Source: Wohlfahrtiimonas larvae (GTDB lineage: Bacteria; Pseudomonadota; Gammaproteobacteria; Cardiobacteriales; Wohlfahrtiimonadaceae). From it: a stretch of DNA of 39,531 nt. The stretch's first letter is position 1; each line of letters begins with the position of its first letter. Location of the stretch: assembly GCF_002006755.1 (NCBI RefSeq), contig NZ_MVDO01000001.1:1-39531 (forward strand), in the 5' to 3' direction. Under the pieces are notes generated by a model that was not told where the DNA came from, made no database searches, and saw nothing but the letters and a program-made list of their open reading frames with translations. Positions 13,435 to 31,959 of this stretch are shown piece after piece. The translations under genes were made by a program, and so were the position numbers.

Positions 13435-14694
13435 GTGAAGTTGTTGTGGAATTGGTACATGAGCAAATCTTTTATGCTCAAAATTACGGTAGGTTTTATT
13501 CTTGGATTGGTTTTTGGTGTTGTACTAGGCCCACAAAATGCAATTTTTTCACCGCTTGGTGCTATCTTTATGAATTTATTGAAAATGATCGTAATTCCGC
13601 TTATTTTCTTATCATTGGTAGTTGCGGTTAATCATTCAAGCCCATCTGAATTGGGTCGTATTGGTGTCAAAGTTTTCCCAATTTATATCGTAACGACGGC
13701 ATTATCTGTTGTGATCGGTATTGTGATTGCGAAATTGATGAATCCTGGTGCTGGCGTAAAGTTACAAGAAGGTATTTCTGTGACTGTGCCTGATCGCCCA
13801 AGCTTCGTGGATACGATTATTAATATGGTGCCAACGAATATTGTGAAAACATTTGCTGATGGCAATATTTTAGCAATCGTGTTTGTGGCAATCATCATTG
13901 GTATTTCGATGTTGTACATGCGCCATTCGGATGATGCTACTCACAAAAATATGGGTGAAACACTCATGAAATTTGTGGAAGCTGCGAATGAAGTGACATT
14001 AAGAATCTTGAGCGGTATTTTGCAATATGCACCGATTGGTGTGTTTGGCATCACAGCAGCAACAATTGGCGCGCAAGGCTTAGATACAGTGATTGCATTG
14101 GGTAAGTTTATTTTAACTTCATACATCGGCGTTGGTTTATTGTTGGTTGTGTTCTATCCATTAATTTTAAAATTGTGGGGCTGTAAGGTTATTCAATTTT
14201 ACCGTGATATTAAAGAATGTATGCTGACATCATTTGTGACAGCAAGCAGCTTAGGTACATTGCCAATTTCAATTCGTGCAGCGAAAAAAGCAGGCATTGA
14301 TGAAAGCATTGCGAACTTAACATTGCCGATTGGTGCAACTGTGAATATGAATGGTACAGCATTGCGCTTGGGTGTTGCGGTGATCTTTGCCTCAGAAATC
14401 ATGGGTATCGATTTAAGTATCGTTGAACTTGTGTCGATTATCTTAATTGGTACATTGACAGCAGTTGGGACAGCTGGTGTTCCTGGTACTGGTTTGATCG
14501 CGATGTCCGCAGTATTTGCTCAAGCAGGTTTGCCAATTGAGATTGTTGCGTTAACAGCAGGGATTAATATTTTGGTGGATATGGTGTTTACATTAGGAAA
14601 TGTAACAGGTGACTTGGTTGCAGCTAAAATGGTGGATCTATCAGAAAAGCGAGCAGCTGCTAAATTAGGAGCACCTTCTGTAGAACTTTCTTGA
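13435..14694 (+). CDS. Dicarboxylate/amino acid:cation symporter (DAACS, DctA/GltT family)
   Basis: 419 residues from the GTG at 13435, chosen because AGGAGG (13423-13428) sits 6 bases upstream; the ATG at 13459 is an alternative. The glutamate-transporter fold is recognised from the HP1 loop TASSLGTLPISI, the TM7 motif NMNGTA, the HP2 stretch GTAGVPGTGLIAM, and TM8 LGNVTGDLVAAK. It imports dicarboxylates or acidic amino acids coupled to Na+ or H+. Its divergent position to the LysR regulator and the 2-oxoadipate genes suggests uptake of a substrate for that pathway (inference). Its TGA stop overlaps the -35 box of the following tyrosine-leader promoter. Confidence 0.92.
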   Translation: MKLLWNWYMSKSFMLKITVGFILGLVFGVVLGPQNAIFSPLGAIFMNLLKMIVIPLIFLSLVVAVNHSSPSELGRIGVKVFPIYIVTTALSVVIGIVIAKLMNPGAGVKLQEGISVTVPDRPSFVDTIINMVPTNIVKTFADGNILAIVFVAIIIGISMLYMRHSDDATHKNMGETLMKFVEAANEVTLRILSGILQYAPIGVFGITAATIGAQGLDTVIALGKFILTSYIGVGLLLVVFYPLILKLWGCKVIQFYRDIKECMLTSFVTASSLGTLPISIRAAKKAGIDESIANLTLPIGATVNMNGTALRLGVAVIFASEIMGIDLSIVELVSIILIGTLTAVGTAGVPGTGLIAMSAVFAQAGLPIEIVALTAGINILVDMVFTLGNVTGDLVAAKMVDLSEKRAAAKLGAPSVELS

Positions 14695-14718
14695 CATCTT
14701 TTTTAAAAAGATTATGAT
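14691..14718 (+). promoter_or_regulatory. Promoter of the tyrosine-leader/trpF-like transcript
   Basis: Consensus -35 TTGACA (14691-14696) and near-consensus -10 TATGAT (14713-14718) with 16-bp spacing. The -35 overlaps the stop codon of the symporter gene. The expected start near 14725 leaves a short 5' leader before the 19-codon leader ORF. Confidence 0.75.
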
Positions 14719-14751: not shown

Positions 14752-14811
14752 ATGAACCAATTTTTTGCGAACTACTATTATTACTATTATCTCCACAAGC
14801 GGGAGATATAG
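14752..14811 (+). CDS. Tyrosine-rich leader peptide (attenuator leader, 6 consecutive Tyr)
   Basis: The ORF encodes the 19-residue peptide MNQFFANYYYYYYLHKREI and ends at TAG 14809-14811. The six Tyr codons (14773-14790) mix TAC and TAT. It sits between a strong promoter and a rho-independent terminator, with a gene just after, which is the exact layout of an amino-acid attenuation leader. Two Phe codons precede the Tyr run. No strong Shine-Dalgarno is seen upstream (AATTAAATAT). The 3' part of the ORF (CACAAGCGGGAGATATAG) resembles the equivalent part of the trp leader in this window (CACAAGGCGGGAGATTTAG). I read it as a sensor of charged tRNA-Tyr, possibly with a Phe contribution. Confidence 0.82.
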   Translation: MNQFFANYYYYYYLHKREI

Positions 14812-14878
14812 CTGTTCGTGAATCAAAAATAGTTCACCCTATATCAAATGAAAGCCCGCTAGAAAGCGGGCTTTTTTT
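14788..14878 (+). promoter_or_regulatory. Tyrosine-responsive transcription attenuator (alternative RNA structures)
   Basis: Three mutually exclusive structures can be drawn. The protector hairpin TATCTCC/GGAGATA (14788-14794 with 14802-14808) overlaps the last Tyr codon. The antiterminator stacks AGCGGG (14798-14803) with CCCGCT (14855-14860), GATATAG (14805-14811) with CTATATC (14839-14845), and GTGAA (14818-14822) with TTCAC (14833-14837). The terminator is at 14851-14874. A ribosome stalled on Tyr codons would break the protector and allow the antiterminator, giving read-through. A ribosome reaching the stop codon would cover the antiterminator's 5' strand and allow termination. The pairings are directly visible; the regulation is inferred from the classical trp/phe attenuation model. 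Confidence 0.78.
14851..14878 (+). terminator. Attenuator terminator before the trpF-like gene
   Basis: Perfect 10-bp stem AAAGCCCGCT (14851-14860) and AGCGGGCTTT (14865-14874), loop AGAA, continuing into a T-run. It lies 18 bases before the next start codon. Confidence 0.9.
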
Positions 14879-14896
14879 ATATCTAAAGGAAATGAA

Positions 14897-15487
14897 ATGG
14901 CAGCGTTAACACAATTGAAAACATTACAATCGAAAGAATCCATTGTGAGTGGTATTACAAGTCGTGCAGATTTAATGGCAGCACATGCAGCAGGTGCAAC
15001 TTATGCAGGCTTTATTTTTGTGTTGACGTCGCCTTATGGCATTGCGATTGAAGAAGCGAAAGAGATCGCCAAAAATTCACCTTTAAAGCACATTGGTATT
15101 TTCCAAAATTCAGATTTAGCGGATATTTTGTATGTGGTGAATGAAATAAAACTTGATGCCATTTTATTGAATGGCTGGGAAACTCAGGCATTTATTACCC
15201 AATTGCGTACGCAATTACCTGAATCTATTAAAATTATCAAAATTGCTCATTTAAAGGATGATGCGCCCAAAATGAATTACCAACATGTGGATTTTTACTT
15301 ATTGGGCGGCCATGTTGGGGAAATTCTAGAGCCGAATTGGACATTACTCCAAAATATAGATTTGAGTAATGTATTTTTATCAGGCAACTGGAGGGATAGT
15401 ACATTGCTACCTAATATTGAATCTCGACCATTGGGTTTTGAGTTGAATTTTAAGATGTCAACTGCAAAAATGCATTGGTCCCATTAG
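14897..15487 (+). CDS. Stand-alone TrpF-like protein, probably a catalytically inactive pseudoenzyme
   Basis: 196 residues, AAGGA ribosome site, ATG start. It aligns along most of its length with the TrpF half of the trpCF product at 32965-34338: SGITSRADLMAAHAAGATYA against CGLKSLEAATAAYESGAYYG, then GFIFVLTSPYGI, HIGIFQNS, LDAILLNGWETQAFITQLRT. Phosphoribosylanthranilate isomerase needs a Cys in its K-x-C-G motif and an Asp near D-x-x-x-GGTG. Here the Cys is Ser (VSGIT), the QLHG motif is LLNG, and the Asp/GGTG/FDW region reads LLGGHVGEILEPNW. The last ~35 residues do not follow TrpF. It is therefore unlikely to isomerise PRA. It is the only gene behind the tyrosine attenuator, which suggests a tyrosine-linked regulatory or scavenging role (speculative). 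Its 3' end overlaps the convergent gene by 38 bp. Confidence 0.8.
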   Translation: MAALTQLKTLQSKESIVSGITSRADLMAAHAAGATYAGFIFVLTSPYGIAIEEAKEIAKNSPLKHIGIFQNSDLADILYVVNEIKLDAILLNGWETQAFITQLRTQLPESIKIIKIAHLKDDAPKMNYQHVDFYLLGGHVGEILEPNWTLLQNIDLSNVFLSGNWRDSTLLPNIESRPLGFELNFKMSTAKMHWSH

Positions 15488-31767: not shown

Positions 31768-31854
31768 ATGACACGCATTACATCAGTTTCACGTAATTTT
31801 TGGTGGCAAATCTCTCACAAGGCGGGAGATTTAGTCGTGTCATGGCAAAAATAA
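31768..31854 (+). CDS. trpL: trp operon leader peptide TrpL
   Basis: A 28-codon ORF (begins MTRITSVSRNFWWQISHKAG, ends VSWQK) with tandem Trp codons at 31801-31806 and a third Trp codon at 31843-31845. An AAGGAA ribosome site lies about 8 bases upstream. It is followed by a rho-independent terminator and then trpD, the standard trp attenuation layout. Its central part, CACAAGGCGGGAGATTTAG, is clearly related to the tyrosine leader at 14752-14811. Confidence 0.88.
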   Translation: MTRITSVSRNFWWQISHKAGDLVVSWQK

Positions 31855-31901
31855 AAGTCAGTACATGAAAAAAGAAACCCGCATATAAGCGGGTTTTTTT
31901 T
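31808..31901 (+). promoter_or_regulatory. trp operon transcription attenuator
   Basis: The protector hairpin AAATCTCTC/GGGAGATTT (31808-31816 with 31824-31832, one G-U) starts 1 base after the Trp codons. The antiterminator can pair GCGGG (31822-31826) with CCCGC (31878-31882) around an inner TCATG/CATGA stem (31840-31844 with 31864-31868). The terminator is at 31875-31896. Stalling on TGG-TGG would open the protector and favour the antiterminator; completed translation would favour termination. The pairings are visible in sequence, and the behaviour follows the known trp attenuation model. Confidence 0.8.
31875..31901 (+). terminator. trp attenuator terminator
   Basis: AAACCCGC (31875-31882), loop ATATAA, GCGGGTTT (31889-31896) and a T-run: a perfect 8-bp stem 58 bases before trpD. 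Confidence 0.9.
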
Positions 31902-31959
31902 CGCCCGCTGTAGCACCCAAAATTTGAAATAAGCATTAAAAAATACAGCAGAGGCAGAT

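Follow-up and report, generated by a model that had tools for sequence, protein, structure and literature searches.

The window analysed here, a stretch of 39,531 nucleotides from Wohlfahrtiimonas larvae, carries a stand-alone gene derived from trpF, called the orphan below, whose product appears to be a barrel without the active site of PRA isomerase. Selection keeps it intact in eight related genomes, and it lies behind an apparent tyrosine-shortage switch; the orphan has therefore probably been repurposed instead of decaying as a duplicate. The first-pass annotation had taken the same view, and it is borne out by intact copies in all eight genomes of two genera, low dN/dS (0.04-0.10), and conservation of the barrel mouth and of the attenuator. 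We give a probability of about one half to the reading that the orphan is a pseudoenzyme derived from TrpF and produced under a shortage of charged tRNA-Tyr, a relic of a trp operon that acts as a ligand-binding effector of the chorismate branch.

The orphan occupies positions 14897..15487 of the forward strand, and its reading frame, already reported in the first-pass annotation, is confirmed as open from ATG to TAG. It encodes 196 aa with a conserved core at residues 14-165. The best public match is the W. populi copy (91% identity). The Pfam PRAI model places the protein in the TrpF family, with a match confined to residues 18-163 (66.7 bits, cut-off 22.7), and none of the NCBIfam TrpF/TrpCF equivalog cut-offs is reached (best 101.9 of 380). 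By sequence, the closest solved structure is the TrpF half of E. coli TrpCF (1pii, E = 1e-27). The last ~35 residues had been described as divergent; the end does differ, but what lies behind this is an early stop in the orthologues of the genus, which terminate after '...NFKM' or '...NVKM(MV)', at strand 8 and before the last helix, together with a run-on of nine residues found in the window copy only. In this copy the ancestral stop at 15458-15460 has been lost through a change of TAA to TCA, and the resulting 9-aa tail overlaps the convergent downstream gene, a bacterial diphthamide-synthase-like ATP pyrophosphatase (PF01902; 15450-16124, reverse strand), the overlap with the orphan 3' end amounting to 38 bases. 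In the two orphans of the sister genus g3 (L043:5805-6395 and L046:703-1293) the last quarter is unlike that of the first genus and ends in SPPPKKRALLC, a divergence which suggests that this part of the sequence is free to change. The orthologue of genome G003 (L042:5562-6116) has a deletion of five residues at helix 1 relative to its close relative G001, with the frame kept.

The AlphaFold2 model of the orphan is a TrpF-like (beta-alpha)8 barrel (pLDDT 69.4, pTM 0.70). It is a modest model: the input consisted of three sequences (the window orphan, the W. populi orphan and the window TrpF), which leaves its C-terminal part uncertain. Confidence is good for strands 1-5 and weak past residue 137, and the modelled chain stops at strand 8, lacking the last helix. 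The prediction is poor in the C-terminal quarter, where pLDDT falls below 50 in several stretches; this quarter also varies among orthologues and takes another form in g3, which means that the barrel may not be needed in full. At the other end, a short helix before strand 1 replaces the end of the TrpC domain. TrpF structures top both structural searches, with 1pii first (Foldseek E 1.3e-14, TM 0.69; VIA Z 19.1, rmsd 3.3, 178 aligned).

We compared the active site between eight orphans and 20 TrpF domains of the TrpCF type. For T. maritima TrpF we take Cys7, Arg36, His83 and Asp126 to be the PRA isomerase active-site residues, with Cys as the general base and Asp as the general acid. D126 is stated to be the catalytic Asp of TrpF (PMC9088769). 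The orphans carry Ser18 (codon 14948..14950, forward strand) where TrpF has its catalytic Cys (Cys7 of T. maritima, Cys260 of E. coli 1pii) and Gly137 (codon 15305..15307, forward strand) in place of Asp126; both replacements are found in 8/8 orphans, while Cys and Asp are found in 20/20 TrpF domains. The changes extend to nearly every strand-end position that is invariant in TrpF: in orphan numbering, K16 is replaced by I/L, C18 by S, R47 by Y/F, Q90 by L/V, H92 by N, A116 by I, D137 by G, G142 by E, G144 by L/V/I, A162 by S and G164 by N, and S185 and E188 of TrpF are lost. At the level of motifs, the Arg motif SPR has become SPY, the His motif QLHG has become LLNGW, and the invariant Lys before Cys, the GG-T/S-G loop, the AGG loop and the DxNS...E motif are all replaced. 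The first-pass annotation was therefore right that the general-base Cys is Ser and that the catalytic Asp/loop region is rewritten, and the replaced set is wider, taking in Arg, His, Lys, AGG and DxNS...E. The new residues are themselves conserved: S18, N92, W94, T96, H118, D121, K125, G137, E142 and N164 are invariant across the two genera. As the phosphate-binding loops are missing, phosphate binding is presumably lost too. The structure prediction and active-site alignment that had been proposed as a check point to a protein of TrpF fold without the known catalytic and phosphate-binding residues of PRA isomerase.

Intact orthologues are present in all six genomes of the window's genus and in both genomes of g3. 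The orphan is absent from the 10 other genomes of the family; no orthologue scoring above ordinary TrpF was found among the sampled genomes of the order (32) and class (185), none beyond W. populi in a genome-contig search covering close relatives, and plasmid records returned ordinary trpCF-type matches only. The evidence for selection comes from these eight genomes, which represent few independent lineages. The comparison of dN/dS across relatives, also proposed with the first-pass annotation, gave Nei-Gojobori values for close pairs of 0.043 (G000-G004), 0.097 (G001-G003), 0.062 (G002-G005) and 0.056 (G007-G009), similar to or lower than those of the intact TrpF half (0.052, 0.110 and 0.168 for the first three pairs). 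The deficit of nonsynonymous changes is significant (p = 1e-5 to 1e-34), all frames are open, and in a simulation of neutral drift 0.05% of copies were still open at 0.8 substitutions per site. Invariant residues make up 39/70 positions at the catalytic face and 17/88 in helices and bottom loops (p = 2e-6). The low dN/dS of close pairs and the strongest conservation at the barrel mouth argue that the gene is not decaying; the codon-level comparison points to strong purifying selection.

The first-pass annotation had also credited the orphan with a promoter, an attenuator and a ribosome site of its own, and all three are in place on the forward strand. The sigma-70-type promoter TTGACA-16-TATGAT (14691..14718) fits the consensus at 11/12 positions, and TTGAC and an AT-rich -10 hexamer are aligned in 8/8 genomes. 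It is followed by a predicted leader peptide of 19 aa, MNQFFANYYYYYYLHKREI (14752..14811), which has a run of six Tyr codons at 14773-14790. The leader is present in all eight orphan genomes, most of them having 5-6 Tyr codons; in G001 one Asp interrupts the run. The 1:2 (pause) hairpin CTCCAC/GCGGGAG (14788..14808) follows the Tyr codons immediately and has a 3' arm that doubles as the 5' arm of the antiterminator. The intrinsic terminator GAAAGCCCGC-TAGA-AAGCGGGCTTTTTTT lies at 14850..14878, and its 5' arm can alternatively pair with GCGGG at 14799-14803; the putative ribosome binding site AAAGGA (14885..14890) is largely conserved in the genus. The leader region folds with z = -4.57. When region 1 is masked in folding, GCGGG pairs with CCCGC as a 2:3 antiterminator that pre-empts the terminator in 8/8 genomes. 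The region thus combines a short leader frame of clustered Tyr codons with antiterminator and terminator hairpins predicted to be mutually exclusive. Promoter, leader, hairpin and terminator keep this layout before 8/8 orthologues. The motif Tyr-Tyr-CTCCAC-GCGGG occurs once in each of the eight orphan genomes and is absent from the family's other 10 genomes. Base-pair covariation is slight, since the attenuator stems hardly vary. At gathering scores no Rfam leader family matches the window, and no other run of at least four Tyr codons in the genome has a leader-plus-terminator layout. The regulatory anatomy of the orphan is well supported: conserved sequence and predicted pairing identify a ribosome-mediated attenuator with a Tyr codon run, and the switch appears to read tyrosine shortage.

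A second leader of this kind is found in the window, before its trp operon trpD-trpCF-trpB-trpA, in which trpA is called by position and operon order and neither trpE nor trpG is recognised. The leader peptide MTRITSVSRNFWWQISHKAGDLVVSWQK (31768..31854, forward strand), part of a leader region with attenuator at 31768-31920 before trpD, is a proposed homologue of the Tyr leader. The trp leaders of g1 (the window's genus), g3 and g4 (another genus of the family) are built alike, with WW: NFWWQISHKAGD, NFWWQISREREI and NFYNYWWHISQ-REV, next to NYYYYYYLHKREI and NFATYYYYYYLHHAGG for the orphan leaders in the same comparison. With the terminator removed, orphan and trp leaders reach z of about 6-8 over shuffles in many pairs; some pairs show no excess similarity, for example the orphan and trp leaders of G007 (z = 1.0), and a leader from G170, a genome of a distant family, does not match the orphan leaders in this comparison. 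The trp leader has a similar 1:2 hairpin, and the trp-form hairpin pattern matches nowhere else in the genome. These similarities make it likely that the Tyr leader and the trp leaders of the family share an origin, though shared function may explain part of the likeness.

By sequence the barrel itself is closer to the TrpF of another genus than to the window's own copy. The orphan is 31% identical to the TrpF of its own genome (33709..34335, forward strand, the intact half of trpCF used as comparison sequence), and 42-48% identical to the TrpF halves of TrpCF in g4. In the tree the orphans form one clade (100/100) grouped with g4 TrpF (98/96), apart from the TrpF of g1. The stem of the orphan clade is long (1.39), and its exact position is therefore uncertain. 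By the AU test, a g4 clade that excludes the orphan is not rejected (p = 0.17), so that placing the orphan as sister to g4 is as good as nesting it within g4. There is no good support for the first-pass annotation's view of the orphan as a paralogue of the TrpF in the same window: a tree that joins the orphan to g1 TrpF has a log-likelihood 16.5 lower (AU p = 0.059), and a simple duplication of the g1 gene is disfavoured. Most likely the orphan is a relic of a trp operon whose leader became joined to the TrpF end.

Neither neighbouring nor co-occurring genes point to a target of the orphan. Its flanking genes differ between sub-lineages, and the upstream transporter and the downstream genes are common to only part of the genus. 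The type of DAHP synthase was considered as a co-occurring trait and set aside: type II is present in 17/18 genomes of the family, with or without the orphan, and hence provides no link between the two. In the window's own genome the only recognised DAHP synthase is of type II (PF01474; loci L104 and L102 examined), and the single PF00793 match is KdsA-like by length and sequence. No leaders were seen before DAHP synthase or tyrA.

We propose that a copy of a trp operon of the type now present in g4 lost everything between its leader and the trpC end by deletion, which would have left the trp leader driving the TrpF half alone, and that the Trp codons of the leader were swapped for Tyr codons. 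When charged tRNA-Tyr is low, a ribosome stalled on the Tyr codons would cover CTCCAC and GCGGG would pair with CCCGC; the terminator could then not form and the orphan gene would be read. The protein would no longer isomerise PRA. It probably binds a ligand, which may be an aromatic-pathway metabolite held by the rebuilt and conserved barrel mouth (S18, Y/F47, N92-G-W94-E-T, H118, D121, K125, G137, E142, N164), and in tyrosine shortage it might shift the use of chorismate toward Tyr/Phe, for example via a chorismate-branch enzyme or DAHP synthase. This fuller scenario, in which a trp attenuator fused to a TrpF end was recoded from Trp to Tyr and TrpF, once dismantled, turned into an effector that rebalances aromatic amino-acid synthesis in tyrosine starvation, is put forward tentatively, at somewhat less than even odds.

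The main rival to an effector is a new catalytic activity, in which the rebuilt pocket would catalyse another reaction wanted in tyrosine shortage, on a metabolite of the Tyr/Phe pathway or an unrelated one. Fixed polar residues at the barrel mouth, in positions where TrpF lacks them (N92, W94, H118, D121, K125, E142), speak for it, as does conservation being strongest on the catalytic face. However, all three phosphate-binding regions are altered, the last helix is gone, and the barrel varies in its 3' part, which would be unusual in a catalytic TIM barrel; we regard this reading as a serious but less likely alternative. It is unlikely that the orphan serves purely as a protein-interaction subunit without a ligand, a truncated barrel docking on TrpC, TrpCF or another enzyme as spacer, competitor or inhibitor. 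Descent from the fusion partner domain of TrpC and a barrel that is modelled as open and incomplete would fit such a role, but the helices and bottom loops are poorly conserved, whereas the mouth is conserved. That the protein is still a PRA isomerase with an unusual active site is very improbable: fold and family match agree with it, but the general base, general acid, substrate Arg and His and phosphate sites are all replaced, and intact TrpCF is present in every orphan-bearing genome. A decaying duplicate open by chance, for which the stop loss and run-on in the window copy, the deletion in G003 and the rewritten 3' end in g3 might be cited, is already contradicted by the open frames, the low dN/dS and the conserved promoter, leader and ribosome site, and is the least credible reading of all.

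TrpF is a standard textbook case for studying the gain and loss of activities in barrels. If the effector reading is true, the orphan would be a natural, conserved case of a biosynthetic enzyme becoming a regulator or gaining a new role; a literature search, itself incomplete, found no report of a TrpF pseudoenzyme. The orphan shares with PRA isomerase (TrpF/TrpCF, 1pii, 1lbm) the fold, the strand order and many helix and core residues. Unlike TrpF, it has neither the Cys/Asp pair, the substrate Arg/His, the phosphate-binding loops nor the last helix, stands alone and is controlled by Tyr codons. A truncated E. coli TrpF of residues 255-384 (2kzh; 39% identity over 122 columns) is also shortened at the C-terminus and has a solved structure, but it is an engineered fragment, whereas the orphan occurs naturally as a conserved gene and extends to strand 8. 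An attenuator sensing Tyr-tRNA is listed for Shewanella aroF (PMC2659441), so that the kind is already known. Aromatic attenuators such as the trp leader and that of Shewanella aroF have in common with the orphan's leader the runs of sensed codons, the 1:2, 2:3 and 3:4 hairpins and the intrinsic terminator. Unlike the known attenuators, the Tyr leader of the orphan resembles the trp leaders of its own family and precedes a pseudoenzyme instead of a biosynthetic enzyme; if our reading is true, it would be a case of an attenuator changing the amino acid it reads, and of the joint exaptation of a switch and the enzyme once under its control.
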